NCBI GenBank assembly: GCA_030018455.1
Contig: JASEFU010000002.1
Coordinates: forward strand, 205,480-269,479
Source of the DNA: Dehalococcoidia bacterium
GTDB lineage: Bacteria; Chloroflexota; Dehalococcoidia; DSTF01; JALHUB01
DNA: 64,000 nucleotides
Direction of reading: 5' to 3'
In this document: positions 8,222 to 28,893 of the stretch, piece after piece
How the letters are laid out: each line of letters opens with the position of its first letter
How positions within the stretch are numbered: the stretch's first letter is position 1
Program-made: the position numbers and the translations under genes
The notes under the pieces: model-generated
What the model was told of the DNA's origin: nothing
Database searches by the model: none
What the model saw: only the letters and a program-made list of their open reading frames with translations

Positions 8222-8262
8222 TGTTTTCTCCTTCCACCTGTGAGGATGCGCCGTCGTTGCGG

Positions 8263-9730: not shown

Positions 9731-9750
9731 GAAAGCGGCCTCTTCAAGGT

Positions 9751-9864: not shown

Positions 9865-9892
9865 TTGATCGCCGCCAGTTGTTGGTTATGAT
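9865..9892 (+). promoter_or_regulatory. sigma70-type promoter of the secreted hydrolase
   Basis: TTGATC, 16-base spacer, TATGAT. It predicts transcription from about 9899 and an untranslated leader near 190 bases before the ATG at 10093. Confidence 0.5.
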
Positions 9893-10092
9893 GATTCTGA
9901 CCACTTCTGCCACACGTGTGGCCCCCAAACGACAGCCCGGTTGGGATTGCGCAGCGAAAGGAGGTACCCGCGGCGATACCTGATACCCGGATGGGGAGCG
10001 GCATTAGGCAGGGATAGCCCAAAGCTCCCGAGATGACTTGAAGCATAGCTTACGGAAACCGCGCATGAGAACGAGTACAGAAAGGAAGGTAC
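9893..10092 (+). promoter_or_regulatory. long structured 5' leader of the secreted hydrolase
   Basis: Contains the palindrome CCACACGTGTGG (9910-9921), an orphan AAAGGAGGT at about 9958-9966 with no start codon at usable distance, and GGGAGC / GCTCCC around 9994-10028 enclosing a GGC...GCC pair. The real ribosome site (GAAAGGAAGG) lies just before the ATG. I do not recognise a known riboswitch class here. Confidence 0.3.
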
Positions 10093-11448: not shown

Positions 11449-11521
11449 AATCGACGGCAAGTAGCGAGCGCCGCCGGTGACCGCCAGCAGCCGCAATCCC
11501 GACTGCGATAGGTGAGGAAGC

Positions 11522-11551
11522 GAGGCGCCGGAGCCTGAGCTCCGGCGCCTC
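11522..11551 (+). terminator. terminator of the secreted hydrolase gene
   Basis: Perfect inverted repeat AGGCGCCGGAGC / GCTCCGGCGCCT (12 base pairs, 4-base loop) 75 bases after the stop. The 3' flank CTGGGTCTTC is only weakly T-rich. Confidence 0.6.
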
Positions 11552-11639
11552 TGGGTCTTCAACAGGCTGTCAGCGGCATTGAGGGACGGTGCGATGGGGG
11601 CCCGCTAAGAGAACCGGCCGCTCTTCTCGGCCTGAAGGG

Positions 11640-12503: not shown

Positions 12504-12642
12504 TCAGTGCCTCCCGCCGGGATCTGTATGATGCCGCAATTGTACCGGGAGTGGGCGATATGCGCACCTTGCGAGGCCCTTTGCGCGGTGGCAGACGGCA
12601 GAAGGTGCGCAAACGCGACAGCGGCTGTGGTAGACAAAGCAA

Positions 12643-12667
12643 GAGGCCGGCCTTCGCGGCCGGCCTC
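12643..12667 (-). terminator. intrinsic terminator of the doxX-like gene
   Basis: Perfect 10-base-pair stem GAGGCCGGCC / GGCCGGCCTC with a 5-base loop, followed on the minus strand by TTGCTTTGTC. It lies 31 bases past the stop. Confidence 0.75.
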
Positions 12668-12697
12668 CGGCGGGAATTGTGCCCGCGGTCCCCTTTC

Positions 12698-13264
12698 TTA
12701 TCCAAGCGCGATCGTTGCTACCCGGTTCTTCTTCACCCAGGGCAGACGCTCGACCAGGGCATCGAGACCGAGGATGCGGCCGGCGCCCAACGCCCCCAGC
12801 AGAGCGAACACAATGATGTAGATCAGGTGGTAATCCACGAACGGGTTGTTCTCGGGCGGGAACTGCGCCAGGTAGAACATCATCATCATCGCTCCCGCCC
12901 AGAAGAGGCCGAAGCGGGTGAACAATCCCAGGGCGAGAGAGAGCCCGATCAGTATCTGCCCCCAGATGACCAACGGATTGATTACGTCCAGCGCCAGATC
13001 GTTCCTGCCGAGGCTCTGGAACCACCCGCCGAGAGGGCCCGAAGTAGCGTTGGTGAGGAAGCCGGCGGCGCTGAAGTCCGTCACCAGCTTGTCGAACCCT
13101 GACCAAAGGAATATGAACGCCATCGATACCCGCAGGAACAAAGCGAAGGGCATTATAAGCACCTCCGCCAGTCTTTCGGGCAATGAGTCGAGCCAGGCGC
13201 GTGTGAGAACGCTGTGCTGAACCCAGGTGACTGTTCTTTCCACTGGACGCGTGATCGCAGCCAT
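12698..13264 (-). CDS. DoxX-family membrane protein
   Basis: About 188 residues with four membrane helices. FLRVSMAFIFLWSGFDKL is the DoxX signature helix. Next come a loop region with LGGWFQSLG and helices LVIWGQILIGLSLALGLF and LIYIIVFALLGALGAGRILGLD. The family includes the large subunit of thiosulfate:quinone oxidoreductase and redox-stress proteins; which role applies here is unknown. The start at 13264 (MAAITRP) is chosen because AAAGGGGA precedes it; the longer frame to 13339 runs through the promoter. Confidence 0.85.
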   Translation of the reverse strand: MAAITRPVERTVTWVQHSVLTRAWLDSLPERLAEVLIMPFALFLRVSMAFIFLWSGFDKLVTDFSAAGFLTNATSGPLGGWFQSLGRNDLALDVINPLVIWGQILIGLSLALGLFTRFGLFWAGAMMMMFYLAQFPPENNPFVDYHLIYIIVFALLGALGAGRILGLDALVERLPWVKKNRVATIALG

Positions 13265-13328
13265 GTAACCGTTCCCCTTTCTGCCTCCCCGGGGTCGTCC
13301 GGAGGAGAATATACCTAAGGTTTGTACT

Positions 13329-13358
13329 ATTTTATGCACAGAAAGCGCGCTAAGTCAA
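13329..13358 (-). promoter_or_regulatory. promoter of the doxX-like gene
   Basis: TTGACT, 18-base spacer, TAAAAT on the minus strand, in a locally AT-rich patch. It predicts a leader of about 60 bases. Overlap with the longer open frame argues for the internal ATG at 13264. Confidence 0.65.
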
Positions 13359-13471
13359 GTGGATTGGGTCACGTTCTGACAAAGAAAGCGGAGCCGATCG
13401 CCGTTGCCTCGGACCGGCGCGCAGTGTAATCTCGCCCGTAGCAATTCGCCCAACGCCGAGGAGAGCCCGAG

Positions 13472-14407
13472 ATGCGATTGTGCAACTTCTATCAGCGGGA
13501 CGCGGTGCGGGTCGGCGCCGTCGCGAACGAATGGATCGTCGATCTCGAGCGGGCGGCGAAGGCGGCGGGAGCGAGCCGCTGGCCGTCCGGCGCCGACATG
13601 AAGGGCTTGCTCGAGACGGGGCCCGCGGCGCTCGATGAGGCGAGACGTCTGACGGACTACGTGGCGCAGCGTCTGGAATCAGGGGAAGGGGAGCTGCTGC
13701 TGTCGGAAGGTCTGCTGCTCCCGGCGGCGGAAACGAGACTCGCCGCGCCTGTCCCGAATCCGTCGAAGGTCGTCGCTATCGGGCTGAACTACCGCGACCA
13801 CGCCCGCGAGCAGGGGGCGCGCATCCCCGACCGTCCCATCATCTTCGCCAAGTTCCCGACATCCGTCATCGGGCCCGGCGACGAGATCGTTTGGGACCCC
13901 GCCTTGACCGAGCAGGTGGACTATGAGGCTGAGCTGGCGTTCGTAATCGGGCGGGCGGCGCGCAACGTGCCGCCGGAGCACGCCTACGACTACATCGCCG
14001 GCTATACCTGTCTCGACGACGTCAGCGCCCGCGATCTGCAGTTCGGGGACCGGCAGTGGGTGCGGGGCAAAAGCCTCGATACGTTCTGCCCTATCGGCCC
14101 CGTCCTGGTGACCACGGACGAGATCGCCGACCCGCACAACTTGCGCATCCGCGCCCTCCTCAACGGTGAAGTGATGCAGGACTCGAACACGTCGGAGTTA
14201 ATCTTCGGCGTGCCGGAGCTTGTCGCCTTCATTAGCCGCGCTTTCACTCTGCTGCCGGGCGACGTCGTGGCGACGGGGACGCCGCACGGCGTGGGGATGT
14301 TCCGCGATCCGCCAGTGTTCATGAAGGACGGCGACCGCATCGTGATCGAGATCGAGGGGATAGGCCGTCTGGAAAACGTGTGCCGCACAGTGCGAGCGAG
14401 CGGCTAA
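13472..14407 (+). CDS. fumarylacetoacetate hydrolase-family enzyme
   Basis: 311 residues. N-terminal small domain followed by the FAH core: KVVAIGLNYRDHAREQG, then DYEAELAFVIG and DDVSARDLQ, which carry the acidic metal ligands, KSLDTFCPIGP, and the conserved GTPHGVGMFRDPP. Members hydrolyse or decarboxylate 2-hydroxy-hepta/hexa-diene-dioates in aromatic breakdown, or act as acylpyruvases. The exact reaction cannot be told. A GAGGAGAG ribosome site precedes the ATG. Confidence 0.88.
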   Translation: MRLCNFYQRDAVRVGAVANEWIVDLERAAKAAGASRWPSGADMKGLLETGPAALDEARRLTDYVAQRLESGEGELLLSEGLLLPAAETRLAAPVPNPSKVVAIGLNYRDHAREQGARIPDRPIIFAKFPTSVIGPGDEIVWDPALTEQVDYEAELAFVIGRAARNVPPEHAYDYIAGYTCLDDVSARDLQFGDRQWVRGKSLDTFCPIGPVLVTTDEIADPHNLRIRALLNGEVMQDSNTSELIFGVPELVAFISRAFTLLPGDVVATGTPHGVGMFRDPPVFMKDGDRIVIEIEGIGRLENVCRTVRASG

Positions 14408-14662
14408 CAGGGGCTGGACTGTCAACGCATAGAGAACTGATAGGCGGATGACGAAGAGCGTGTGTCCGGTAATCGGGCTCTGCGTGATGAATCCCGCAGT
14501 TTCTCGTGAAGCGACTGCGTCGCCGCTCTGCTGAAGCGGCGCCTGGCCGCTGGCATCGCGGCGTTTGTCTGCTGAAGCGGCGCTTGGCCGCAAGCCTGCC
14601 TGCGCAGGCGGGCAAGCGCCGTCCGGCAGCAAACAAAGGCCCGCCGTCCTGCGAGGCGGGCG
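14408..14662. repeat. non-coding gap with dispersed repeat copies
   Basis: Two copies of a GCTGAAGCGGCGCCTGGCCG-type element (near 14532 and 14572) and a palindrome GCCTGC / GCAGGC (14594-14609) flanked by CCGCAA and GGGCAAGC. The same pieces recur at 28.9-29.1 kb and 39.0-39.2 kb. No coding frame is supported. Confidence 0.6.
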
Positions 14663-15304
14663 CTAGCGGAGCGGCGAGTAGGGCAGCGCAAACACCGGGT
14701 ACAGCCGTTCCCGCGGCGCCAGCGTGCGCACGCCGCGGAAGAACTGGTTCGTTCCCTCGTTCGACGGTTCGTACCCCGACTGCCGCATCGGCCCCTTCCA
14801 GAGGTCGATCACCTCGTTCTGCTTTCCCGTGATTGCGCGCCAGTTCGCGACAAGCGGCAGCGCCTTCGCCGCCGCCTCCATCCCCTGCTTTAGCTGCGCC
14901 ATCTTTCCCGGGGCAACATCCATCGCGGCCACCGTGTACACCTTGAGGGGCGTCTCGCGGCTCTGCGCCGATGCCTCCTTCAGCGTCTCCGGCGGCACGG
15001 CAAACGGCTCGAACAGGCGCCGCGATCGCTCGGGCGCGGCCTCTTCCAGCCGCTTTTCGCACTCCGCCCAGCCTTCGTCCTGCCGCGCTCTCTCGCGAAA
15101 TTCCCCGAGCGCCGCGAAGTCATCGAACTCCAGCACCTGCGTCACCTGACAAAACCACTCGATGTCGCTGTACCAGGCCGCCGCCAGCCGCGCCCTCAGG
15201 CGCTCGTACGCCGGTAGCAGCGTCTCCCCGGCCAGCGTGACGAACTTGTCCAGCCCCTCGGGGCTCGCCGGCTCCACGTTGAAGGTTTCCCACAAGTAGA
15301 TCAT
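14663..15304 (-). CDS. NIPSNAP-like protein, two-domain
   Basis: 213 residues, two tandem ferredoxin-like (dimeric alpha/beta barrel) repeats. The N-terminal MIYLWETFNVEPASPEGLDKFVTLAGETLLPAYERL and the later LKVYTVAAMDVAPGKMAQLKQGMEAAAKAL have the NIPSNAP pattern. An AGGAGGAA overlaps the end region of the upstream TauE gene and favours the second of two adjacent ATGs. Function of bacterial NIPSNAP proteins is unknown. Confidence 0.65.
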   Translation of the reverse strand: MIYLWETFNVEPASPEGLDKFVTLAGETLLPAYERLRARLAAAWYSDIEWFCQVTQVLEFDDFAALGEFRERARQDEGWAECEKRLEEAAPERSRRLFEPFAVPPETLKEASAQSRETPLKVYTVAAMDVAPGKMAQLKQGMEAAAKALPLVANWRAITGKQNEVIDLWKGPMRQSGYEPSNEGTNQFFRGVRTLAPRERLYPVFALPYSPLR

Positions 15305-15316
15305 CATTTCCTCCTG

Positions 15317-16387
15317 CTAGCGCTTGCAGCACAAAGGCTCCACCCAGCGGGGAATGCTGCGTCCGCGCCGGTACAGCACCCCGAGGACGAGCAGCGCCGC
15401 TATCGATACCGTGAGAAAGGCGATCCCGCCGAAAAGAGTGATTGTCGCGGCTGCGTCCAGCGCCCCGATGGTTTCGTCCGTCAGAACGTCCGCCAGCTCG
15501 AAGGCGGTACCCGCCGCCGCCAGGCCGACCGCCAACGCCAGAACGAGGCGCACGGTGGGCCCGGTAACGTAGGCCGTCGCCACCGCGCCCACCTGCGTGC
15601 CCAGCGAGGCGCCGATCAGGAGAAGGAGCGAGGCGAATATCAGGACGTTCGCGCTCATGGTGTGTCTCAGCGTGCCGTAGCTTGCGGTGAAGATCATCTG
15701 GAGCAGGCCGGTGCCCACCGCCAGGTGCGAGGGCACGCCGACCAGGTAAATCAGCGCCGGGTTCAGCACGAAGCCGCCGCCTACGCCGATAAGGCCGGCG
15801 AGGACGCCCGTAAAGAACCCTATCACTATCAGCACCCAGAACGAGATGCGCACCCGCGAACGCGGCAAGTCGACCATCGGCCACAGACGCAGCGCGTGCA
15901 GGCGGCGCCACAGCCCCGACGACACCAGCTCCCTCGGTGAAATGTCGCCGGCGAGCCCCGGCATCGCCATAAGTTGCTGCGAACGTCGCGTCTCCCAGAC
16001 CGTAAACACGCTGATGAACGCCATCAGCGCCAGCGACGCCGAGAGGACGCCTTCGTCGGCCACGCCTCTGTCCTTCAGCCAGTTCACCAGCGCGACGCCC
16101 CCCTCGACGCCCGCCAGCGTGCCGATCACCGTCAGCGCCCCCAGCCTCAGGTCGACGTTGCCCAACTGACGGTGTCGCATCGTCGCCACCACGGCGTTGC
16201 CGGAGATGTGGGCGAGCCCGGTGCCGACGGCAATCGGCGCCGGGAACCCCATGACGATCAGCGCCGGCGTGACGATGAACCCTCCGCCGACGCCCACGAA
16301 TCCCGCGAGCACCCCCAGCGCGAACCCGAGGAACAGGAGAACGACGGGGCTTGCCTCGAGGCCGGGCACCTCGGAGAAGGTGATCAC
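15317..16387 (-). CDS. TauE/SafE-family anion permease
   Basis: 356 residues, 8-9 membrane helices in two homologous halves, each beginning with a glycine-rich GFVGVGGGFIVTPALIVMGFP or GLIGVGGGFVLNPALIYLVGVP block, diagnostic of TauE/SafE transporters. A cytoplasmic loop of about 40 residues separates the halves. Proteins of this family export sulfite, sulfoacetate or similar anions. The GTG start overlaps the stop of the upstream small gene (GTGA), so the two are translationally coupled. Confidence 0.9.
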   Translation of the reverse strand: MITFSEVPGLEASPVVLLFLGFALGVLAGFVGVGGGFIVTPALIVMGFPAPIAVGTGLAHISGNAVVATMRHRQLGNVDLRLGALTVIGTLAGVEGGVALVNWLKDRGVADEGVLSASLALMAFISVFTVWETRRSQQLMAMPGLAGDISPRELVSSGLWRRLHALRLWPMVDLPRSRVRISFWVLIVIGFFTGVLAGLIGVGGGFVLNPALIYLVGVPSHLAVGTGLLQMIFTASYGTLRHTMSANVLIFASLLLLIGASLGTQVGAVATAYVTGPTVRLVLALAVGLAAAGTAFELADVLTDETIGALDAAATITLFGGIAFLTVSIAALLVLGVLYRRGRSIPRWVEPLCCKR

Positions 16388-16671
16388 TCCTGGCCGTCCT
16401 CCTCGAAATGGCGGATCTCGCGCACGCGGTATCCCAGCGCCTCCGTCAGACGGATGAGCAGCAGGCCGAGGAGCGACCCCGTGACGAGCATCAGCCCGAC
16501 GTTGTAGAGGACGGGGAAGAGATCGCGGCCTTCCTGCGCGTCGCGGAAGAGCTCGGCGAGCTCGCCCTCGATATGCCAGTAGACGGCGTGCCCGATGATC
16601 GCGGCGAGCGCCAGGGCAAGGAAGAACGCCTGGATGAAGGCTCTTCGCCTCGATCGGTCGTCCGGCTCCAT
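16384..16671 (-). CDS. small two-helix membrane protein coupled to the TauE gene
   Basis: 95 residues from the ATG at 16671, which has GGAGG 8-9 bases upstream (MEPDDRSRRRAFIQ). Two hydrophobic helices (about 13-32 and 55-78) are separated by an acidic segment EGELAELFRDAQEG. The C-terminus is RVREIRHFEEDGQE. I do not recognise a family. The overlapping stop/start with the permease suggests an accessory subunit. Confidence 0.65.
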   Translation of the reverse strand: MEPDDRSRRRAFIQAFFLALALAAIIGHAVYWHIEGELAELFRDAQEGRDLFPVLYNVGLMLVTGSLLGLLLIRLTEALGYRVREIRHFEEDGQE

Positions 16672-16700
16672 TAGTGGCCTCCAGCGGAACGAAAGCAAGA

Positions 16701-16729
16701 GGGGCGCGCCCCGATCTTAAGCGCGCCCC
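16701..16729 (-). terminator. GC-rich hairpin after the yjbQ-like gene
   Basis: GGGGCGCGC / GCGCGCCCC, 9 base pairs with an 11-base loop, 22 bases past the yjbQ-like stop. The minus-strand flank TCTTGCTTTCG is moderately T-rich. Confidence 0.6.
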
Positions 16730-16751
16730 CGCCTGGCGTCAAAAGCGGCGC

Positions 16752-17165
16752 TTACTCGCCGATGACCTTGACGACCACCCGCTTGCGGCGCTGCCCGTCG
16801 AATTCGGCGTAGAACACCTGCTCCCACGGCCCGAGGTCGAGCCGGCCGTCGGTCACCGGCAGCACCACCTGGTGATGCAGGAGCGAGCGCTTCAGGTGGG
16901 CGTCGGCGTTGGTCTCGCCGGTGCGGTGGTGCCGGTAGTCAGGCCGGAACGGCGCGAGCTGCTCCAGCCACTCCCAGAGGTCCTGCCACAACCCCGGTTC
17001 GTTATCGTTCACCCAGATCGCCGACGTGATGTGCATGGCGCTAACGAGGCACAGGCCCTCGCGCACACCCGATTCCCTGACCGCCGCCTGCACGTCGTCC
17101 GTCACGTTTACGAGCTCTCGAGGCGACTTCGTATTGAACCAGAGGTAGTGGGTGTGCGTCTTCAT
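16752..17165 (-). CDS. YjbQ family (UPF0047) protein
   Basis: 137 residues from [48 protein letters not shown], the [46 protein letters not shown] stretch and RVVVKVIG cover the whole conserved family. E. coli YjbQ has weak thiamine-phosphate-synthase activity; the physiological role is uncertain. The longer open frame upstream is spurious. It follows the Fe-S gene by 17 bases. Confidence 0.88.
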
Positions 17166-18253: not shown

Positions 18254-18385
18254 GTCGGCGACACTCCAATCTGCCTTCTTGGTCAAGGGATGGGCCAGTT
18301 TGATGCTCCAAATGCTACACGACAAGGCGCATAAGCGAAAGCAGCGGCGGGCGCCGCCGCTCAGGTGACGGCCTGCCGCGAGGCA

Positions 18386-18655
18386 TTACCCCTCTTTCGG
18401 GCCCGCCTCGTAGTGGATCCAGGCCAGGCGCTTCTTCACGTCCTCGAGGTGCTCGGTGATGAGCTGCGCGTGCTTCGCCTCCTCACCGGCCAGCCAGTCG
18501 AGCATCTGCTTGCTTTCCGGCTTCCACGGCCGCTTCTGCGCCGATTCGAGGTAGAAGGCGCGCGCTTCGTGCTCTCGTCGCAGCGCGTCCTCCAGCACGC
18601 CGATTAGCTCATCCTCGTAGTACTCGTACTTCGTTCCCGCCGTCTGCTCCGACAT
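18386..18655 (-). CDS. ferritin-like / rubrerythrin-type small protein
   Basis: 89 residues. Two helices with REHEARAFYLESAQ and GEEAKHAQLITEHLEDVKK, giving the E...ExxH pattern of half a di-iron ferritin-like bundle, so it would need to dimerise to form the full site. No rubredoxin domain. A run of G (GGGGGGAC) precedes the ATG at 18655. It probably acts in peroxide or iron handling beside the Fe-S gene. Confidence 0.7.
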   Translation of the reverse strand: MSEQTAGTKYEYYEDELIGVLEDALRREHEARAFYLESAQKRPWKPESKQMLDWLAGEEAKHAQLITEHLEDVKKRLAWIHYEAGPKEG

Positions 18656-18746
18656 CAGTCCCCCCAAAATCTCCGCTGATCTAACACGTTTGCAACGACC
18701 GTAAGATCGTATTTCAAAAGGCAGGAAAAGGGTAGTACCCGCCGCC

Positions 18747-19874
18747 TTAGTACGGCTGCACGTTCTCGAATATGCGGCGAGGGTTCTCCCGCGTCATTGT
18801 GTCTATCTGCACCTCAGTTACTCCCGCTTCCAGCAGCATCGGGATCACGTTGTCGATGATGTGGAAGTAGTTCCAGTCCGGCCCCAGCGCCGGCAGCGCC
18901 TCGGGCGGGAACCAGTCGAAATACACCATCGCGTCGTGCGAAAGCACCATCCGCTCCGTGTACCCCAGCTTGCAGAGCTCGGCAATGGTGGCCACCCGCT
19001 TCTCGGTGGACAGGTAGACTTCGAGGCCGAAGCGGTCCATCCCGATGTATGAGCCGCGGTCGAGCAGCTTCGTGAGGTAGCCAAGGTCGTCCGTGTCGCC
19101 GCTGTGCCCGATGATCACCCTCGACAGGTCGACGCCCTCGCTCTCGAAGATATCCTGCTGCTCCAGTCCGCGCTCCGTCCTCGCGTGGGTGTGCGTGGTT
19201 ATGGGCGCGCCCGTGCGGAGGTGCGCCTGCGCCGCCGCCCGCAGCACCTTTTCCACGCCCGGCGTCACTCCGGGCTGATCGGTGGCGCACTTGATGACGG
19301 CGGCCCGCACGCTCGTGCCCTGGATGCCCTCCTCGATCTCGCGGACGAAGACATCCGCCATGTGCTCGACGCTGCGGCTGGCGAAATAGTGCGGCAGCTC
19401 GTCGTAGGTGTAGAGGCCGGTCGCGGGGATGACGTTTATCCCCGCCTTCTCGGCGATGGGGATGAGGAGCGGCACGTCGCGTCCCAGGCCGAGGACCGTC
19501 GGGTCGAGGATGGTGTCGACGCCCTTCGCCTTGAGCCGCGTGAGCGTTTCGACGGCGCGGTCGACCTCCGTCTGCTGGTCCCACAGGAACGGGAACTGGA
19601 ACTGCACTCCCTCCGACCGCGAAAAGATGTGCTCGTGCATGAGGGTGAAGCCCATCTCGCCGGTGCTGATGGGGCCCGTCAGCGTCTCGACTGAGGGGCC
19701 GCTGATCTCCCGCCGCTGGGCGGTCGCCGTCGCCACAGGCTCCTCCTCCTTTTCGTCGCCGCCGCAGGCCGCGAGCGCGGCGCCCGCCAGCCCGGCCGCG
19801 GCGCCGGCTTCGAGCAATCTCCGCCGCGAGAGCCTCTTGCCCAGGACCTCCAGTCCCTCGACCCGTCGTTGCAT
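18747..19874 (-). CDS. Tat-exported phosphotriesterase-like lactonase (PTE family)
   Basis: 375 residues. Twin-arginine signal SRRRLLEAG, lipobox ending at Cys37, then a TIM-barrel amidohydrolase. All binuclear-metal ligands are present: His80/His82 (MHEH), carboxylated Lys195 (AVIKCATD), His228/His230 (TTHTHA), His257 (IIGHSGD) and Asp314 (LSHDA). Relatives hydrolyse lactones (including acyl-homoserine lactones) or organophosphates. It is the last gene of a four-gene minus operon. GGAGGTG precedes the ATG. Confidence 0.88.
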   Translation of the reverse strand: MQRRVEGLEVLGKRLSRRRLLEAGAAAGLAGAALAACGGDEKEEEPVATATAQRREISGPSVETLTGPISTGEMGFTLMHEHIFSRSEGVQFQFPFLWDQQTEVDRAVETLTRLKAKGVDTILDPTVLGLGRDVPLLIPIAEKAGINVIPATGLYTYDELPHYFASRSVEHMADVFVREIEEGIQGTSVRAAVIKCATDQPGVTPGVEKVLRAAAQAHLRTGAPITTHTHARTERGLEQQDIFESEGVDLSRVIIGHSGDTDDLGYLTKLLDRGSYIGMDRFGLEVYLSTEKRVATIAELCKLGYTERMVLSHDAMVYFDWFPPEALPALGPDWNYFHIIDNVIPMLLEAGVTEVQIDTMTRENPRRIFENVQPY

Positions 19875-19909
19875 CTTTCACCTCCATGACCGGCGTTTCG
19901 GGCCGCCGG

Positions 19910-21328
19910 CTAGCCCAGGCGCTCTTGCGCCTCCGCGGCCGCCCACTTGAAGGTGTTGCGCGCCATCATGTTGCCTTCGACGGCCGCCCGCGCTTCGAAA
20001 AGCTCTTTCGACAGCCGGCAGGCGTCCGTGTTGTCGGGCTGGGCCTTTCGCACCCAGCCGACGAGGTGGCACGCCAGCGTCAGGTCGCCTGCCGCCTGCA
20101 GCTCGCGCGCCCGCGCCAGCACGCGGTCGCTTCCCGCCAGCGCGACGATCTCTTGCGCCTGGGCGTCTGTCGCCGCAGGGAAGAAGTTCGCCGGGTCGCC
20201 GTCGTACCAGCCGCCGTACTCTCGCCACACGCCGTGGACGATGAACTTCGGGTGGCCGTATATCGGCGCAAGGTACGGCTCCGAAACGAGGTCCGCCGGC
20301 GGCTCCACTTCGCGCAGGATTTGCTCGAGCCACTGCCCGCGGTTCATCCGCTCTATCACCTGGTCGTGTATCGAGCGCAGGTAGCGGGCGACGTTGAGGG
20401 CTTTCGTCTGGACGTCCTGTTCACCCTCTATGGGCGCGCCGTGTCCCGGCAGCAGCAGCGAGGGCCGGACGCCCGCCATCGCTTCCAGGCCTTCTGCCCA
20501 GCCTTCGGCGAACCGCTGCACCTTCCACGGATTGCCGACGTTGGGGCACGCCCAGATGAAGAAGTCTCCCGAACAAACGAGTTTGCGCTCCGGCGCGTGG
20601 ACCCACGTGTGGTCGTCCGTCTCGCCGATGCCGTGCACGAGCTCGAACTTCTCGCCGCCGACCTCCAGCGTCAGGCGGTCATCGTATGTCTCATCGGGGT
20701 AGACGAAGACAGGGGTCGGAGGTGGTTCGAAATCGGGTTCGATGGGGACGCCGAACTGGATGGAGTTGATGAACTTCGTCCAGCCGGCCATGCGTTCGTA
20801 GCGACGAAAGCGGCCGAGCACGCGCGAATGCGCGATGACGCGGGGCCGCGGATAACCCCTCTGCTGCGCGTCTTCCAGGAAAGCGGGGGCGCCGCCGACG
20901 TGGTCGTAGTGGCCGTGCGTGTAGACGATCGTGTGGACCGGCTCGTCCGTGCGCTTGCGCAGCTCTTCGACGATCGGCGGCCCGTTACCCTGAAGAGACG
21001 TATCGACGATGACGATGCCTTCGTCGGTGATGAGCGCGATGACGTTTCCAAAGTAGGGGAAGAAGATGGTACCCGGCGCCACTTCGCGTATGCCCTCCGG
21101 ATTGCCGCCGATGCTGACGATGGAGCCGCTCGGCGGGGTGGCTGTGGGCGGCCCTTCACCCGGCGATGCAGCCCCCGGCGTCACTGTCTCTGTCGCCGCT
21201 TCCTCGCCTTCGTCGCAGCCCGCCAGGCTCAGGCCGGCGGCGCCCATCGCGAGGGCCCCCGCCTGCAACAGCTCGCGCCGCGAGAGGCGGCATCCCAGCA
21301 GTCCCCAGTCATTCTCCCAGGGTCTCAT
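19910..21328 (-). CDS. Tat-exported MBL-fold hydrolase, alkylsulfatase-like
   Basis: 472 residues. LSRRELLQAGALAMGAAG Tat signal with lipobox Cys38, a low-complexity linker (about 40-70), then a metallo-beta-lactamase domain with THGHYDHVGG (His138, His140, Asp142, His143). GIGETDDHTWVHAPERKLVCSGDFF and LLLPGHGAPIEG supply the other ligands. The segment YGHPKFIVHGVWREYGGWYDGDPANFFPA and the helices after it match the dimerisation domain of SdsA1-type alkyl sulfatases. A full sterol-carrier-like C-terminal domain is missing. It probably cleaves an ester on the outer face. Confidence 0.85.
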   Translation of the reverse strand: MRPWENDWGLLGCRLSRRELLQAGALAMGAAGLSLAGCDEGEEAATETVTPGAASPGEGPPTATPPSGSIVSIGGNPEGIREVAPGTIFFPYFGNVIALITDEGIVIVDTSLQGNGPPIVEELRKRTDEPVHTIVYTHGHYDHVGGAPAFLEDAQQRGYPRPRVIAHSRVLGRFRRYERMAGWTKFINSIQFGVPIEPDFEPPPTPVFVYPDETYDDRLTLEVGGEKFELVHGIGETDDHTWVHAPERKLVCSGDFFIWACPNVGNPWKVQRFAEGWAEGLEAMAGVRPSLLLPGHGAPIEGEQDVQTKALNVARYLRSIHDQVIERMNRGQWLEQILREVEPPADLVSEPYLAPIYGHPKFIVHGVWREYGGWYDGDPANFFPAATDAQAQEIVALAGSDRVLARARELQAAGDLTLACHLVGWVRKAQPDNTDACRLSKELFEARAAVEGNMMARNTFKWAAAEAQERLG

Positions 21329-21369
21329 AGCACCACCCTTTCCAGGTTGCGAGGCAGGGCCTGCTGGGG

Positions 21370-22623
21370 CTATGAGCCCAAGCGTCGCTCCGCCTCTCTT
21401 GCCGCGCCCTTGAAGGTGTTGCGCGCCATCATGTTCACTTCTCGGGCGGCCCGAGCCTCGTAGAGCTCCTTGCTTAGCTGCCAGGCGTCGCGGTTCTCCG
21501 GCTCGGCCTTCGTCAGCCAGTCAACGATGTGGCAGGCAAGCGTCAGATCGCCTTCGGATTGAAGCTCACGCGCCCGCGCCAGCAGCTTCGCGGCGCCTGC
21601 CGCCGCGACGATCTCCTTTGCCTGGCTCACGGTCGGCGCGGGGAAGAAGTTCGCGGGATTGCCGTCATACCAGCCGCCGTACTGCCGCCACACGCCGTGA
21701 ACGATGAACTTGGGGTGGCCATAGACCGGCTGGAGATATGGCTTTGCCGCCAGCTCCGGCGGCGGTTCCACCTCCCGCAGTATCTGCTCCAGCCATTGCC
21801 CCTGGTTCATCCGCTCGATAACCTCCTCGGCGATCGAGCGGAGGTAGCGGGCGGTATCGAGGAGGACGGTCTGCGCTGCCTCGTCGCCGCGAACGGCGGG
21901 CCCGTGCCCGGGGAGAAGCAGGTCGGGGTGCAGGCTGGCCATCGCTTCCAGCGCTTCCGCCCATCCCTCGGCGTAGCGTTGCACTTTCCAGGGGTTGCCG
22001 ACGTTCGGACAGGCGGAAACGACGAAGTCGCCCGCGCAGATGGCGTTCCGCTGCGGCGCCCAGACCCAGGTGGCGTCGTCCGTCTCGCCGACGCCTGCGC
22101 GGAGTTCGAAGGGCTCGCCGCCCACCACCAGGGTCATGCGCTCATCGTAGAGGACGTCTGGATAGATGAACGGCGGCTGAGGCGGCGGCTCGGCGCTTGG
22201 CCCCGCCCGTCGCGCCCACTGGATCGAGTTGATGAACCAGGTCTGGCGCGCCATTCGTTCGTAGCGGTGCAGCCGGTCGGGCACCCGCCGCTGGCCGATG
22301 ACGCGCGGCCGTGGGTGGCCCCGTTCGCGGGCGTCCTCGATGAAGTGGTTGGCGCCGGGCGCGTGGTCGAGATGGCCGTGCGTGTAGATGATGCTGTGGA
22401 TGGGCAGGTCCGTTATCTCTCGCAGCTCCTGCAGCACCTCCTTGCCGCTGGCATAGCTGGACGCGTCGACGAGGACGATGCCGTCGCCGGTCAGAAACGC
22501 GACGACGTTTCCGAAGTAGGGGAAGAAGAAGGTGCCCGGGGCAACCTCCTGCGTTCTTCCCAGTCGCCCCCGTGTCTCGATTTCGACGATTGACGCCCTT
22601 TCGGGCGACTGCTCCGACACCAT
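21370..22623 (-). CDS. cytoplasmic paralogue of the MBL-fold alkylsulfatase-like hydrolase
   Basis: 417 residues, similar over its length to the next gene but with no signal peptide: it begins MVSEQSPERASIVEIETRG. THGHLDHAPG gives His82, His84, Asp86 and His87; the dimerisation segment YGHPKFIVHGVWRQYGGWYDGNPANFFPA is almost identical to its neighbour. The pair therefore arose by tandem duplication and then diverged in location. Gap to the neighbour is 41 bases, so it is co-transcribed. Confidence 0.85.
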   Translation of the reverse strand: MVSEQSPERASIVEIETRGRLGRTQEVAPGTFFFPYFGNVVAFLTGDGIVLVDASSYASGKEVLQELREITDLPIHSIIYTHGHLDHAPGANHFIEDARERGHPRPRVIGQRRVPDRLHRYERMARQTWFINSIQWARRAGPSAEPPPQPPFIYPDVLYDERMTLVVGGEPFELRAGVGETDDATWVWAPQRNAICAGDFVVSACPNVGNPWKVQRYAEGWAEALEAMASLHPDLLLPGHGPAVRGDEAAQTVLLDTARYLRSIAEEVIERMNQGQWLEQILREVEPPPELAAKPYLQPVYGHPKFIVHGVWRQYGGWYDGNPANFFPAPTVSQAKEIVAAAGAAKLLARARELQSEGDLTLACHIVDWLTKAEPENRDAWQLSKELYEARAAREVNMMARNTFKGAAREAERRLGS

Positions 22624-22679
22624 GGTCTAGTCCTCCAGCAACCTGACGAAACTCGTGTTCGGGCGGCGGAGCGCAGCTC

Positions 22680-24122
22680 CTAGTCCTTCGGCTCCACGCC
22701 GGCGGCGAGCAGCGCCATGTCCCGGTACTGCTTCAGCGGCGATTCGTAGAGGATCATCATCCGCTGGGCCGCCATCGAGCCCTCCGCGTGGACTGTCGTC
22801 ACCTCCATGTGGGCGCTGTCGGCGGAAGCGACCATGTTGTGCGCTAGCTGCACCACCCGCATGCGTTCCTCGGCCGTGTACTTCGGCGACGCGCTGAGGT
22901 AGTGGTTCAGGTAGCCGTGTATCTCCTCGTTCTGCCAGTCCAGGTACGTCGGCATCGTCGTGATGATCCCGCCGGAGATATCCTGGATGAGCTTAATGAT
23001 CTCGTGGTAGTTCTTGGCGAAGTGCAGCTTCGCCATGTTGGTGATGAGCGGGCTGGGAACGCAGATCTCGCCGTAGTAGACAGGCGTCTTGATCGCCGCC
23101 TGGCCCAGCGCCTTCAACGTCTCAACGTAGGCGACCACTTCCGACAGCTTGTCGCGGATGTGCCCGACGTTGCCAAGTCCGTTCACGTCGGCCATCGCCA
23201 GGGCGATCCCGCCGAGGATCTCGACGATCGGGATCTTGTAGGAGACGGCGGTGAAGCGGTGGTAGGTCGCGAAGGTGTAGGCGAGGAGCATAGAGTATTG
23301 CCATTCGCCCGCCAGGAACACTCGCTCCCAGGGCACGAACACGTTGTCGAAGACGATCATCGCCTCGACGAGCCCGCGGTTCGGCCGGTTGGAGGGGAAC
23401 TCCGCCGGCGAGCGGTCGCCGTGGCCGGGGCGGCAGATGAGGCTGATCCCGGGGGTCGCGACCGGGATCGCGAACGAAACGGCGTAGTCGGCCTCGTCCT
23501 CGCGCATCTGGCGCGTCGGCACCACGAGCAGCTCGTTGGCGGCGGGAGCGCCGGTGATGTGTATCTTCGCCCCCTTGACCACGATGCCGTCCTTGTTGCG
23601 GTCGACGATGTGGACATAGTAGTCGGGGTGGACCTGCTTCGAGGGCACCTTGCTGCGGTCGCCCTTCACGTCGGTGACGGCGCCGCATAGCATGAGGTCG
23701 TTCGCGCGCAGGTGCTCGAGGTAGGCCTTCGCGCGCTCTTTGTACTCGGGCTTCCCCATCTGCTCTGCGGTGGCCATGATGGCGTTCAGGCAGTCGGTGC
23801 CGATGTCTTTGCCGAAGGGGAGCCCGCCGGTGAGCCGGATCGACTGCTGGACCATCTGCATCCGCTTTTCGATGTCGTCAGGCGTCTTCGGCGTGGTGAA
23901 GTAGCGGCTTATCGGCTCGCCCGTCTCCGGGTGTTCGGCGACGAAGAGGTCGCGTATCGCCGGGTCCTTCGACTCCGTGAGGACGAAATCGGCGGCGGCG
24001 GTCTCAGTGTTTATCTTGAGGATGCGATGGGTCGTTACGTCCTCCACGCGCTCGCCGAACATGTAGACGACGCGCCCGTCTCTCAGACTCTGCCTGTACT
24101 CTTCTGGTGTGCGGATAGCCAT
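22680..24122 (-). CDS. HpaB / 4-hydroxybutyryl-CoA dehydratase superfamily protein
   Basis: 480 residues of acyl-CoA-dehydrogenase-like flavin fold. GAVTDVKGDRSKVPSKQVHPDYYVHIVDR, IVVKGAKIHITGAPAANELLVVPTR and AMIVFDNVFVPWERVFL are the superfamily blocks; DISGGIITTMPTYLDW and the AEGSMAAQRMMILYE end match the 4-hydroxybutyryl-CoA dehydratase branch more than the small flavin monooxygenases. Yet of the dehydratase Fe-S ligands only the His (His288, YHRF) remains: the Cys seven residues later is Tyr295 and the first Cys pair is not seen. It may be a flavin-only oxygenase or isomerase. First gene of the operon. Confidence 0.8.
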   Translation of the reverse strand: MAIRTPEEYRQSLRDGRVVYMFGERVEDVTTHRILKINTETAAADFVLTESKDPAIRDLFVAEHPETGEPISRYFTTPKTPDDIEKRMQMVQQSIRLTGGLPFGKDIGTDCLNAIMATAEQMGKPEYKERAKAYLEHLRANDLMLCGAVTDVKGDRSKVPSKQVHPDYYVHIVDRNKDGIVVKGAKIHITGAPAANELLVVPTRQMREDEADYAVSFAIPVATPGISLICRPGHGDRSPAEFPSNRPNRGLVEAMIVFDNVFVPWERVFLAGEWQYSMLLAYTFATYHRFTAVSYKIPIVEILGGIALAMADVNGLGNVGHIRDKLSEVVAYVETLKALGQAAIKTPVYYGEICVPSPLITNMAKLHFAKNYHEIIKLIQDISGGIITTMPTYLDWQNEEIHGYLNHYLSASPKYTAEERMRVVQLAHNMVASADSAHMEVTTVHAEGSMAAQRMMILYESPLKQYRDMALLAAGVEPKD

Positions 24123-24181
24123 GTCTCACCTCTCCTGCTACCGGCTCCCCTGTTGCGGAGAGCGCCCTTTTTCGCAGGGCT

Positions 24182-24210
24182 ACAATAGGCAACGCCCATT
24201 TAACACGCAA
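24182..24210 (-). promoter_or_regulatory. promoter of the HpaB-MBL-MBL-PTE operon
   Basis: TTGCGT (24205-24210), 17-base spacer, TATTGT (24182-24187) on the minus strand, about 60 bases before the HpaB-like ATG. No other box pair is visible between the four genes, whose gaps are 56, 41 and 35 bases. Confidence 0.6.
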
Positions 24211-24283
24211 GGCAGCCGAGATGGAGCGCTCTTGCCTGCGCTTCTTTCGCTTCCCCTCCTGCCGGACAGTCCATAGGAGGTAG

Positions 24284-24311
24284 TTGCGGCCTAATGTAGA
24301 ATGATTATAGT
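24284..24311 (+). promoter_or_regulatory. promoter of the radical SAM gene
   Basis: TTGCGG, 16-base spacer, TATAGT, ending 15 bases before the ATG at 24327, so the leader would be under 10 bases. The ribosome site is weak. Confidence 0.5.
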
Positions 24312-24326
24312 AAAGGCAGACTCAAG

Positions 24327-25247
24327 ATGCGTGCGGACAACAGTTCCAGCTTCCTTACATACGAACTTCCACCCATACGCCCACCGAGCGAAGCGCGCTC
24401 CCTGCTGATCAGGGTGATGCGCGGCTGCCCCTGGAATTACTGCACGTTCTGTTCCGTGTACAAGGACCTGCCGCGAAAGAACATGCTCCGCTCCACCGAT
24501 GAGGTGAAGGGCGACATCGATGCGCTGCGGGCGAGCGCCGACGAGCTGCGCGCGCAGGGGTACCGCGTGGAGCCGAGGACTGCCTTCCTCGCCGATTCGA
24601 ACGCCGTGATCATCAAGACCGAAGATCTCATTGACATAATCGCCTACCTGCGGGCGGCCTTCCCCTCGCTGGAGCGGGTCACTTCGTATGCGCGCGCCAA
24701 GACGCTGCTTGCGAAGGACACGGGCGAGCTGCGGTTGCTACACGACGCGGGGCTTGACCGCCTGCACGTCGGTCTGGAAAGCGGCGACGACGGCGTCCTC
24801 GCCACCGTGAAAAAGGGCGCGACGGCACGAGAGATGACGGAGGGCGGCCGCAAGGCGAAAGAGGCGGGCTTCGAGCTGTCGCTGTACATCATGCCCGGTC
24901 TGGGAGGCACGGCGCGGTCGGCCGACCACATCAGGGGCACCGTGGACGTGCTGAACGCGGTCGACCCCGACTTCATCCGTGTCCGCCCGCTTCAGGTCGT
25001 CCCCGGCACGCCTCTTTTCGACGACATGATAGCGGGCGCGTTCGAGCCCCTGTCGCTGGTGGAGATGCTGGAAGAGTTGCGGCACATCGTCGCCGGTCTC
25101 CAGACGACGGGCAACATCTGTTTCGATCACTTTATGAACGCGCCGATCTTCGACCAGAGCTGGGAGGGGTACAAGCTCCCCGAATCGAAGGAGCACTTGC
25201 TGACGATCATGGATGAGGCGCTTGCCTCAGCGGCGAGGCGCAAATGA
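24327..25247 (+). CDS. radical SAM protein (Elp3/HemN-like spacing)
   Basis: 306 residues. RGCPWNYCTFC binds the 4Fe-4S cluster through Cys34, Cys39 and Cys42, with four rather than three residues between the first two. LHVGLESGDDGVLATVKKGATAREM is the conserved SAM-binding/barrel strand, followed by LYIMPGLGG and FIRVRPLQVVPGTPL. No B12-binding or C-terminal SPASM domain. Close relatives are annotated only as radical SAM proteins and the substrate is unknown. Confidence 0.85.
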   Translation: MRADNSSSFLTYELPPIRPPSEARSLLIRVMRGCPWNYCTFCSVYKDLPRKNMLRSTDEVKGDIDALRASADELRAQGYRVEPRTAFLADSNAVIIKTEDLIDIIAYLRAAFPSLERVTSYARAKTLLAKDTGELRLLHDAGLDRLHVGLESGDDGVLATVKKGATAREMTEGGRKAKEAGFELSLYIMPGLGGTARSADHIRGTVDVLNAVDPDFIRVRPLQVVPGTPLFDDMIAGAFEPLSLVEMLEELRHIVAGLQTTGNICFDHFMNAPIFDQSWEGYKLPESKEHLLTIMDEALASAARRK

Positions 25248-25399
25248 AGCGGCGCGCGGAGGGGTCATAGGGGATTTCCCGATGCGCCCTTTTCTCTCTG
25301 ATCGTGATAATCGAAAGAGAGGGTGTTCAGGCGCCCCCTTCAGATTGACGTCGGGTTGGGCCTCGAAGGGATCGGTTGAACTGCGAAGGACCGCGAAAG

Positions 25400-26857
25400 A
25401 TGCACCTTGTCTATAGCCTCTTCACATTCCTCTGGAGTATTACTTTTCCCCTTGCCGGAAACGGTTCAGCGAACGTATACGGCGACATCAGCCAGGCGTG
25501 CAGCACCGCCGCGCCCGGCACCGCTGCGGTCACGTTCCGGTGGCCGCAGGCGGGTGGCGCCCTTCAAGTGTGGGTCGATCTCAGCCTGTACGATAACGGC
25601 TTTCGGTCCGGCAGCTTTGTCGGCGCGGGGCCTTTCGGTTCCCAGGCCACGTCTTACACCTGGCATGGCATCAGGCCCGGCCTCCCGCACTACTATCGTG
25701 TCACCGCCCTGTACGCCGACGGCTGGCGCACAATCAAGAGCGGCGGCTTCATCTCCGGCCACTGCAGCCCAGCGGCGGCGCTTCTTCTGCCGCCTCAACA
25801 GCAGTGCAGCGTCCAGGAGCCCGGGAAGGTGCAGGTCACGTTCCGTTGGGCGCCTGCCCTTGCCGCCGGCGCGGAGCAGTGGCTGGACCTCAGCCTTTTC
25901 GATAACGGCTTTGCGCCCGACACCTTCGTAAGCCACGGGCCGATACAAGGCGGCGTTTGGGAGCACACGTGGGACGGGCTGGCCCCGGGACTCCGGCATC
26001 AGTGGCGTGTCAATACGCTCCAGGGAGGCGCCTGGTATCCTTCCACCGCCTCTTTCACGACCCTTAGCTGCGGGGCATCCGCTGCGCCCAATCCTGCCTT
26101 GCTCCAATTGAGGGACAGTCTCGCCGCCCAGATGCAACAGTGGAGCTTTGATTCGGCGGTGGCCGTGACCGATCTGCAGACCGGGGAAACCATAGATGTC
26201 AACGGGAACGTCCCTCACCACGCCGGCTGCAGCATCAACTTCTTCGTCCTTCTCTCCGTAGTCATGGACTTGGAGCAGGGGCGCTACCCGGAAAGCTACG
26301 TCGGCGACCTCATTGCCCGCACGATCTACAGCAGTAACCCCATCACTGCCCGCACGCTCCTGATCCAGACCGGCGGAAGCGTGCCGGCGGGCGTCTTGAA
26401 GATCGGCGATCTGATGCGGCGGCTGGGTCTCCAGGTCTCCTTCTTCGATCATCCGCCGGCGTACTACGAAGAGTTCTCACTGATGGGGCTGGCCAACGTC
26501 CTCACGGCGAACGAGATGAACCGCGCCCTCGCTTCCTTCTACCACGGCGGAGTCGTCGGCTTCTTCTGGCGCGATTACTTGATGCAGAAGATGGTGGGCG
26601 TGAAGCCGGGGTTACAGTACCTCATCCCGGCGGGCGTGGGCGGCGGCGTCGTCTCCCACAAGAACGGCTTCAGCTGGGTCCCCGGCGGCTGGATCGATAA
26701 CGACATCGGCATCGTCACCTTCAGCCGCGGCGGCGTGACGTATGCCTACGCGATTTCGTTCTTCACCCAGAACGTCCCTTACGAGTACGCCGATATCCCC
26801 CTCGGCCAGACCGTCTCGCGGCTGGTCTGGCAGTACTTCTCCAACCGCTACCCGTAA
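25400..26857 (+). CDS. secreted protein with two Fn3-like repeats and a degenerate beta-lactamase-like domain
   Basis: 485 residues. Signal peptide 1-24 (MHLVYSLFTFLWSITFPLAG). Two duplicated domains (about 30-120 and 130-222) share VDLSLYDNGF/LDLSLFDNGF and HYYRVT/HQWRVN motifs. The C-terminal 230 residues follow the class-A beta-lactamase order: AGCSINFFVLLSVVMDLEQGRY in place of SxxK (Ser278 kept, Lys replaced by Phe281), SSN at 311-313 for SDN, and HKNG at 420-423 for KTG. Lack of the Lys suggests no penicillin chemistry. The ATG at 25400 is preferred over 25376 for the signal peptide. Confidence 0.7.
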   Translation: MHLVYSLFTFLWSITFPLAGNGSANVYGDISQACSTAAPGTAAVTFRWPQAGGALQVWVDLSLYDNGFRSGSFVGAGPFGSQATSYTWHGIRPGLPHYYRVTALYADGWRTIKSGGFISGHCSPAAALLLPPQQQCSVQEPGKVQVTFRWAPALAAGAEQWLDLSLFDNGFAPDTFVSHGPIQGGVWEHTWDGLAPGLRHQWRVNTLQGGAWYPSTASFTTLSCGASAAPNPALLQLRDSLAAQMQQWSFDSAVAVTDLQTGETIDVNGNVPHHAGCSINFFVLLSVVMDLEQGRYPESYVGDLIARTIYSSNPITARTLLIQTGGSVPAGVLKIGDLMRRLGLQVSFFDHPPAYYEEFSLMGLANVLTANEMNRALASFYHGGVVGFFWRDYLMQKMVGVKPGLQYLIPAGVGGGVVSHKNGFSWVPGGWIDNDIGIVTFSRGGVTYAYAISFFTQNVPYEYADIPLGQTVSRLVWQYFSNRYP

Positions 26858-27056: not shown

Positions 27057-27605
27057 ATGGCCCGTGTGAAGTACGTGAGCGCTGCTGACGCCATCGGAGA
27101 TGCCCGCGTGGTGTTCGCGAAGTGGGAGCAGGAGGGCCGCGACCCCATAAACCTGCACCGCATCGTCGCCAATAGCCCCAACGCCCTGCGCAACTTTCTG
27201 CGGCTGGGCAACTCGCTCCTTCTCTACGGACAGCTTGCTCCCCGCTTGCGTGAGCTCGCCATCCTGCGCATTGCCCAGATCACGGGCGCCGAGTACGAGT
27301 GGGTGCACCACGTCCCGATAGCGGAGGAAGTCGGCGTCAACCATGCGGAGATATCCCATCTCGATGATTGGCAGTACCGCCCCGAGTTCGATGATCGGGA
27401 GAAGGCGGTGGTCCGGTATACGGAGGCGGTGACAAGGGACGTTGAGGTGCCTGACGAAGTCTTCGATGAGCTGCGCAAGCACCTGAGCGAGCCGGAGATA
27501 GTGGAGCTGACGCTCGTCTGCGGCTACTGGGGAATGGTAGCGCGACTCATCGTCGCCCTCAAGATCGATATCGAGCCCGATTTCCAGCGCTTTCTCTCTG
27601 CTTAG
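27057..27605 (+). CDS. carboxymuconolactone decarboxylase / AhpD-like protein
   Basis: 182 residues, all-helical CMD fold. LAPRLRELAILRIAQITGAEYEWVHHVPIAEEVG is the conserved active helix pair, where the AhpD CxxC is replaced by YEWV, so a peroxidase reaction through a disulfide is unlikely. FDDREKAVVRYTEAVTRDVEVPDEVFDELRKHLSEPEIVELTLVCGYWG completes the second repeat. It sits 55 bases before the LarA gene and may act on the same substrate. Confidence 0.85.
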   Translation: MARVKYVSAADAIGDARVVFAKWEQEGRDPINLHRIVANSPNALRNFLRLGNSLLLYGQLAPRLRELAILRIAQITGAEYEWVHHVPIAEEVGVNHAEISHLDDWQYRPEFDDREKAVVRYTEAVTRDVEVPDEVFDELRKHLSEPEIVELTLVCGYWGMVARLIVALKIDIEPDFQRFLSA

Positions 27606-27660: not shown

Positions 27661-28893
27661 ATGAGGGTGAAGGTCCCCCAATTGATCTTTGACGGCAATA
27701 CGGAACTGGAGCTGGACTTTCCGTCCGGCTGGGAGGTGACATTCTGCGCTCCGCCGGCCTACGACCGTCCCGAGATGTCGCCGGGGCAGATGCAGCAGGC
27801 GTTTGACCGGCCGGTCGGGTCGCCGCGGCTGCGCGAGATGGCGGCGGGGAAGCGGGAAGCGGTGATCATCTTCGACGACATCACGAGGCCCACGCCCGTC
27901 GGGCAGATCGCGCCGTATGTGCTGGGCGAGCTGGATGCGGCGGGAATGGCCGACGAGCAGATACGGTTCGTCGTCGCCTCCGGTACGCACGGCGCCCACG
28001 ACAACCACGCGCTGCGCAAGAAGCTGGGCCAGGAGATAGTGGAGCGCTACGCCGTCTACAACCACAACCCGTACGAGAACTGTGTCGAAGTGGGCACAAC
28101 GGGCCTGGGCACTGTCCTTTCCATCAACCGCGAGGTCATGGCGTGCGATTTGAGAATCGCCATCGGCGGCGTGCTGCCGCATCCGCAGGCGGGCTTCGGC
28201 GGCGGCGGGAAGATACTGCTTCCCGGCGTCTCTCACATCGACAGCATCGACCAGTTCCACCGCACGATATTCGGCAGCCCGCCGAACGTCGTCGGCATGG
28301 GAAACTGGGACGAGAACCCGATGCGCCGCGAGACGGAGGATGCGGTGCGGCTGGTGGGGCTCGACTTCCTCGTGAACGTGCTGATGAACGGTCACGGGGC
28401 GGTGATGGACCTCGTGGCGGGGGCGCCGCTGCCAGCGCATCATGAGGGGGTCCGGCGCGCGAAGGAGGCGTACGCCACCGTGCCCGCGACTAACGTCGAC
28501 ATAGCGGTAACCAACGCCTACGCCAAGGCCGGCGAGGCCGCGATTGCGATCATCGCCGCCGTCCGCTCGCTAAAGCCGCAAGGCGGGACCATCGTCATGA
28601 TCATGAACTGCCCCGAAGGACAGGTGGTGCACTATTTGCTGCGCCAGTTCGGCAAGGAGTACGGCGGCCGGCAGTACACGCCGCGGGGGATGCTGCCGCC
28701 TCAGTTCAAGCTGATCATCCTTAACCCGCTGCCTGACCTGACATGCACCGACCTCTTCGTGGACCGCCGCTCGGTGATCTGGGCGAAGACGTGGGATGAG
28801 GTGATGTCGCGCCTGCGGGAGCTGCACCCGGACGGCGCGAAGGTGGCGGTCTACCCCGATGGTACAGCACAGTACCTGCGCGCGCCGGACTAG
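27661..28893 (+). CDS. larA: LarA-family nickel-pincer racemase
   Basis: 410 residues. Lactate racemase LarA uses a nickel-pincer cofactor bound to Lys184 with catalytic His108 and His174 and Ni ligand His200 (Lactobacillus numbering). Here His174 (PHPQAGFGG), Lys184 (GGGGKILLPG) and His200 (QFHRT) are at identical positions, and GTH gives His110. DDITRPTP (72-79) is the nucleotide-like motif. It could racemise lactate or another 2-hydroxy acid; the family is broad. No larB/C/E cofactor genes are in the window. Confidence 0.85.
   Translation: MRVKVPQLIFDGNTELELDFPSGWEVTFCAPPAYDRPEMSPGQMQQAFDRPVGSPRLREMAAGKREAVIIFDDITRPTPVGQIAPYVLGELDAAGMADEQIRFVVASGTHGAHDNHALRKKLGQEIVERYAVYNHNPYENCVEVGTTGLGTVLSINREVMACDLRIAIGGVLPHPQAGFGGGGKILLPGVSHIDSIDQFHRTIFGSPPNVVGMGNWDENPMRRETEDAVRLVGLDFLVNVLMNGHGAVMDLVAGAPLPAHHEGVRRAKEAYATVPATNVDIAVTNAYAKAGEAAIAIIAAVRSLKPQGGTIVMIMNCPEGQVVHYLLRQFGKEYGGRQYTPRGMLPPQFKLIILNPLPDLTCTDLFVDRRSVIWAKTWDEVMSRLRELHPDGAKVAVYPDGTAQYLRAPD

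Follow-up and report, generated by a model that had tools for sequence, protein, structure and literature searches.

What do four genes lying head to tail in a Dehalococcoidia genome do together, when their family names alone would suggest a phenylacetate hydroxylase, two alkylsulfatases, and a phosphotriesterase? The locus lies in a 64,000-nucleotide stretch of DNA (hereafter the window; contig 2, positions 205480-269479) from a 2.38 Mb genome assembled in 26 contigs and 97.7% complete. It joins familiar families in a rare combination, and its flavin enzyme comes from an unstudied branch that its domain name misdescribes. Judged by the sequence comparisons below, the hydroxylase and alkylsulfatase labels are probably wrong, and the phosphotriesterase is probably better read as a lactonase.

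Gene Arrangement and Transcript Boundaries

The four open reading frames are real genes with unambiguous domains (Table 1). The flavoprotein matches Pfam HpaB_N (5e-82) and HpaB (1e-52), both metallo-beta-lactamase-fold (MBL) proteins match Lactamase_B together with Alkyl_sulf_dimr (1e-35 and 7e-31), and the phosphotriesterase (PTE)-family protein matches PTE (2.4e-101). All four are encoded on the minus strand with gaps of 56, 41, and 35 bases, exactly as described in an earlier note on this DNA, and each is preceded by a Shine-Dalgarno-like purine run. That note also placed them behind one promoter, for which no support was obtained: a scan of positions 18300-25400 for sigma-70-like promoters found 0 sites, with 0.7 expected by chance. 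Terminator-like sites occurred at chance level in total, the sole minus-strand site lying 3' of the ferritin-like gene. Since no promoter scored, terminators were at chance level, and a further co-directional gene, the ferritin-like one, follows the PTE gene, the transcript may exceed four genes, and a 3' operon boundary at the PTE gene is arbitrary.

Table 1. Features of the locus, in window coordinates
Feature	Position	Strand	Properties and evidence
HpaB/AbfD-superfamily flavoprotein, third uncharacterised clade	22680..24122	-	480 aa; no signal peptide; Pfam HpaB_N/HpaB, structure model, residue mapping
MBL1, metallo-beta-lactamase-fold hydrolase with alkylsulfatase dimerisation domain	21370..22623	-	417 aa; no signal peptide; Pfam, metal ligands
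MBL2, MBL1 paralogue (65% identical), predicted surface lipoprotein	19910..21328	-	472 aa; Tat motif and lipobox; tree
PTE-family protein, phosphotriesterase-like lactonase type	18747..19874	-	375 aa; Tat motif and lipobox; Pfam PTE, SsoPox residues
Small ferritin-like protein (Rubrerythrin family), possibly encoded by a fifth gene of the same transcript	18386..18667	-	Pfam Rubrerythrin 2e-7; 79 bases downstream of PTE
Intergenic region separating the divergent HpaB-like and radical SAM genes, presumably containing the promoter	24123..24326	.	Patchy conservation with G009
Radical SAM protein, divergent neighbor	24327..25247	+	Kept in G009 (68%)
CMD-family protein	27057..27605	+	44% identical to CMD protein near HpaB-like gene in deltaproteobacterial MAG (L092)

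A Flavoprotein Distinct from HpaB and from Canonical AbfD

Among sequences with solved structures, the closest to the flavoprotein is 4-hydroxybutyryl-CoA dehydratase (AbfD), with 265 bits versus 170 for HpaB. The predicted structure (pLDDT 92) gives the same order, matching 4-hydroxybutyryl-CoA dehydratases with a Z score of 46.3 and an rmsd of 2.2-2.3 over 473 residues, versus a Z score of about 41 for HpaB. The label "HpaB-like", under which the protein had been recorded, is therefore misleading, the protein being nearer to AbfD by both sequence and structure while matching neither the HpaB hydroxylase nor the canonical dehydratase.

With HpaB, a 4-hydroxyphenylacetate 3-monooxygenase, the protein shares the Pfam domains and the fold, but not the substrate site: Arg100, Tyr104, and His142 (T. 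thermophilus numbering), which we take to be the HpaB substrate-site residues, are replaced by K, C, and G. Scores against the NCBIfam HpaB models fall far below the curated cut-offs (TIGR02309, 209.4 of 480.2; TIGR02310, 135.6 of 885.2), and these scores together with the substrate residues rule out identity as an HpaB hydroxylase. The operon also lacks a flavin reductase gene; the genome has a single Flavin_Reduct gene, at another locus, which could be the partner of any flavin monooxygenase, and none was detected in the incomplete assemblies G009 and G162.

With AbfD (PDB 1u8v, 6vjr) the protein shares the full-length fold at 33% identity, the position of the histidine ligand, and the lysine following the last cysteine ligand. 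In contrast, the three cysteine ligand positions and those of Tyr296 and Glu455 are replaced throughout the clade to which it belongs. Following the ligand and catalytic numbering that we assume for AbfD, the [4Fe-4S] ligands Cys99, Cys103, His292, and Cys299 become P, D, H, and Y in the window protein. The replaced cluster ligands rule out a canonical AbfD dehydratase although the overall fold is kept, and with the Fe-S ligands lost, AbfD-type dehydration as such is unlikely.

Phylogenetic analysis placed the flavoprotein in a clade of eight sequences (100/100), three from Dehalococcoidia and five from MAGs named Deltaproteobacteria, Syntrophales, Syntrophaceae, or Desulfobacterales. The clade, which takes in syntrophic and sulfate-reducing groups, keeps at least 64% identity between its two major lineages, and the cluster ligands are replaced in every member; it is nested in a larger group (96/91) in which the cluster cysteines are uniformly missing. 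The window's genome also encodes two paralogues that keep the AbfD cysteines and fall on the AbfD side of the tree, so that it holds both kinds.

Members of the clade and of the wider group often have CoA-related neighbors: L092 and L094 have AMP-forming ligases along with a CMD protein and an SDR, L091 has a family III CoA transferase with a zinc alcohol dehydrogenase, and L075 and L077 have acyl-CoA dehydrogenases; no such pattern was recognized by eye at L090, L093, L095, and L097. The two paralogues in the window's genome adjoin genes that are ligase-like as judged by homology between loci and sequence reading, not by Pfam. In L092 the CMD gene lies two genes from the HpaB-like gene, and the related CMD gene of the window lies 3 kb from the flavoprotein gene, a likeness that is suggestive only, since CMD genes are common.

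Two further arrangements were seen around these families. A Lar_N protein gene (window 27661-28893) adjoins the CMD gene, and a distant Lar_N homologue (27%) adjoins the flavoprotein gene in L096. In G162 (L101:6228-9903), an MBL gene of a related clade and an HpaB-family gene encoding the AbfD-type cysteines are divergent neighbors.

The MBL Proteins

The di-metal ligands of MBL1 (H82, H84, D86, H87, E180, D199, and H240) are invariant in an alignment of 24 sequences, and structure comparison returned the alkylsulfatase fold, dimerisation domain included, with a Z score of about 30. The fold, the dimerisation domain, and a complete di-metal site are thus shared with the type III alkylsulfatases SdsA1 and Pisa1, whereas the window MBL proteins differ in lacking the C-terminal SCP-2 domain, in carrying Trp in place of Arg312, and in having a conserved motif of their own. 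An SCP-2 domain is common to SdsA1, Pisa1, and SdsAP, which have a three-domain layout (PMC5426288). The window proteins end after the dimerisation domain and give no SCP2 Pfam match. Arg312 of SdsA1, presumably an active-site residue with a role in sulfate binding, aligns with Trp212 of MBL1, and the MBL relatives share an NPxKVQR motif instead. With both the SCP-2 domain and an Arg312 equivalent missing, the designation "alkylsulfatase-like" proposed for these two proteins is doubtful.

In the MBL tree, MBL2 groups with the MBL protein of G009, a genome of the same family but another genus (100/98), while the branching order of MBL1, the G041 protein, and that pair is left open within one subclade (91/92). 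The grouping of MBL2 rules out MBL1 as a fresh duplicate of MBL2, and indicates that MBL1 is probably older than the split from G009 and was then lost in G009 or gained here. A partial parallel is found on plasmid pBB2 of Cupriavidus necator, where a tandem pair of genes, both named after this dimerisation domain, is followed by an alpha/beta hydrolase gene near a CoA ligase gene; however, the stretch shown holds no PTE or HpaB-like gene, and identity to MBL1 is 33%.

Lactonase Features of the PTE Protein and Predicted Export

All metal ligands and the carbamylated lysine are present in the PTE protein (H80, H82, K195, H228, H257, and D314). Equivalents of SsoPox Y97, Y99, R223, and W263 are kept, with Tyr97, Arg223, and Trp263, which we regard as lactonase-typical residues, corresponding to Y155, R281, and W321. 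The best PDB matches are 4if2, a phosphotriesterase homology protein, and SsoPox-type enzymes, and the score against the organophosphate hydrolase model NF041153 (202.5 of 500) is below the cut-off. The protein therefore shares with phosphotriesterase-like lactonases (SsoPox, PDB 2vc5; PDB 4if2) the metal ligands, the lactonase-typical residues tested, and a full-length core match, but differs from SsoPox in an added Tat lipoprotein signal and a Met at the Cys258 position. With these main hallmarks present, the PTE-like lactonase label of the earlier note is retained as a prediction.

Both MBL2 (SRRELL...LAGC) and PTE (SRRRLL...LAAC) carry a twin-arginine motif and a lipobox cysteine and look like surface lipoproteins. 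Neither motif is found at the N-termini of MBL1 and the HpaB-like protein, and the MBL1 frame opens one codon before its ATG, leaving no room for a signal. The N-terminal motifs are consistent with the proposed division into two Tat lipoproteins outside the membrane and two cytoplasmic proteins. Exported MBL and PTE forms are limited to the window's family among the loci examined; since almost all relatives elsewhere lack signal peptides, export looks like a local acquisition. The PTE frame of G009 contains a TGA inside the Tat motif (L072:4528-4700), which may reflect loss of export, a downstream start, or an assembly error.

Conservation of the Gene Set

Conservation was surveyed in 18 genomes of the order (flavoprotein cut-off E 1e-40) and 393 genomes of the class. 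At this cut-off the flavoprotein occurs in two of the 18 (the window's genome and G009) and is missing from the other 16, and the four-gene order was found only in the window's genome. In G009, the closest relative and the only other genome of the family, whose flavoprotein is 87% identical, the order is radical SAM, HpaB, one MBL, PTE, ferritin-like (74% identical), and Fe-S genes, as in the window. Collinearity extends past the operon, through the ferritin-like and Fe-S protein genes and to neighboring window genes found on other G009 contigs, and may reflect relatedness, so that conservation in G009 is weak evidence for function; we had considered it as strong evidence of a functional operon, and downgraded it on account of the wider collinear region. 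Synteny is low at two other loci, where the homologues may not be true orthologues.

Three genomes of the class (f70) carry a flavoprotein 71% identical and a close PTE, which are unlinked; the MBL of these genomes, insofar as placed in the tree, falls in another clade. In G041, a genome of another family, an MBL gene (59% to MBL1) directly follows a PTE gene (51%), the order of the two being swapped, and the flavoprotein homologue is on a separate contig. Members of the MBL subclade formed by MBL1, MBL2, and the G009 and G041 proteins lie beside a PTE gene at all three known loci. Of the independent evidence for a link, the adjacency in G041 is the strongest, and it comes from a single genome outside the family. 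No PTE was found within 1.5 kb flanks of MBL relatives in other Chloroflexota classes, none is annotated within 5 kb of four plasmid MBL relatives, and one plasmid PTE inspected has no MBL neighbor. The expectation that relatives would keep the gene set holds in part, for HpaB, one MBL, and PTE in collinear G009 and for the MBL-PTE pair in G041, but not for the four-gene order or for most genomes of the order. Outside the family, conservation is largely lacking, an outcome that the earlier note had named as speaking against its reading.

Proposed Pathway and Alternatives

The reading we favor, tentatively and at somewhat less than even chance, is that the operon serves to catabolize a lactone or related ester, with hydrolysis at the cell surface followed by CoA-linked flavin chemistry inside. 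The surface PTE-like lactonase would open the lactone, and surface MBL2 would cleave an ester bond, or one like it, in substrates of that class; the freed hydroxy acid would enter the cell, where MBL1 might act on substrate that had entered intact. A ligase encoded elsewhere would activate the hydroxy acid to its CoA thioester, on which the AbfD-like flavoprotein would carry out a dehydrogenation, isomerization, or elimination. Within this family the PTE and MBL parts appear to have been relocated to the cell surface, nearly all relatives examined elsewhere being without signal peptides. The folds, the metal and lactonase residues, and the export motifs are read directly from sequence, whereas the shared substrate, transport, CoA activation, and flavin reaction are what we infer; the CoA-linked part draws on the nearness of the flavoprotein to CoA-thioester enzymes in sequence and structure and on the CoA-related neighbors of clade members. 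Counting against it, the four-gene run contains no CoA ligase or transporter gene, in the f70 genomes the flavoprotein and a close PTE are both present but not linked, and synteny with G009 is wide. The stepwise lactone or ester breakdown suggested earlier, with a flavin enzyme acting inside, thus survives in its lactonase-type PTE and its split between compartments, while conservation of the set is thin and the flavoprotein and alkylsulfatase labels had to be corrected. As the earlier note also stated, no described pathway combines HpaB-like, two MBL, and PTE genes in the literature searched; in SAR202, lactone intermediates have been proposed that are made by other flavin enzymes (PMC5395668), and flavin-dependent elimination on an acyl-CoA has been described for BbuA, which shares almost no sequence identity with AbfD (PMC8364193).

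The opposite reading, in which general scavenging hydrolases and a flavoprotein are neighbors by chance and share no pathway, is rather unlikely but keeps real weight because conservation is thin: the four-gene order is confined to one genome, the f70 copies are unlinked, and G009 is collinear over a wider stretch. The tight co-directional spacing argues against chance, as does the MBL-PTE pairing in another family within one MBL subclade. Rather unlikely too is a cell-surface module for detoxification or signal quenching, directed for example at acyl-homoserine lactones or antibiotics, in which case the co-transcribed flavoprotein would serve another process. PTE-like lactonases of the SsoPox type are known to hydrolyze acyl-homoserine lactones, MBL2 and PTE look like surface proteins, and a serine beta-lactamase-family gene lies nearby (25376-26857); however, the neighborhoods of the flavoprotein clade look catabolic, and the plasmid MBL relatives lie beside amidases, alpha/beta hydrolases, a CoA ligase, dehydrogenases, and transporters.

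We consider two further readings improbable. In a two-component flavin monooxygenase operon, the HpaB-like protein would use reduced FAD supplied by the genome's flavin reductase to hydroxylate an aromatic, which the hydrolases would free from esters. The HpaB_N/HpaB domains and the single Flavin_Reduct gene are compatible with this, but the sub-threshold NCBIfam scores, the altered substrate-site residues, and the lack of a reductase gene in the operon and of a detectable one in the incomplete G009 and G162 assemblies are not what it predicts, and close relatives of the flavoprotein occur in Syntrophales and Desulfobacterales MAGs, largely anaerobic groups. The other is organosulfate scavenging, with the MBL proteins as true sulfatases, PTE as a side activity, and a TauE protein exporting sulfite or sulfate. 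The alkylsulfatase fold and dimerisation domain would fit, as would a co-directional TauE/SafE gene (15317-16387) lying 2.4 kb past PTE, but several unrelated genes intervene, the SCP-2 domain is missing, and the Arg312 position is Trp in MBL1, with the NPxKVQR motif shared among relatives instead.

Returning to the lactone or ester operon, a bolder extension, which we regard as unlikely, is that the clade of the flavoprotein represents a new class of acyl-CoA flavoenzymes in the HpaB/AbfD superfamily that is free of Fe-S clusters, common to Dehalococcoidia, Syntrophales, and Desulfobacterales, and coupled in the window's family to a surface lactonase and MBL module feeding on lactones. The clade is a clear target for biochemistry, and the surface lactonase module, if true, would point to one possible route by which uncultured Dehalococcoidia gain access to the lactones of organic matter.

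Other hydrolase-related genes were noted in the same genome. The N-terminal part of the serine beta-lactamase-family protein at window 25376-26857 twice resembles a domain of the protein at L116:5251-6102, the gene of which adjoins an AbfD-like paralogue. Upstream of the window (L106; G000:C2:176000-195000), a second hydrolase cluster on one strand (7840-16947) encodes PTE-family, beta-lactamase-family, BKACE, MBL-fold, and alpha/beta hydrolase proteins, a family-5 solute-binding protein, and an amidase.
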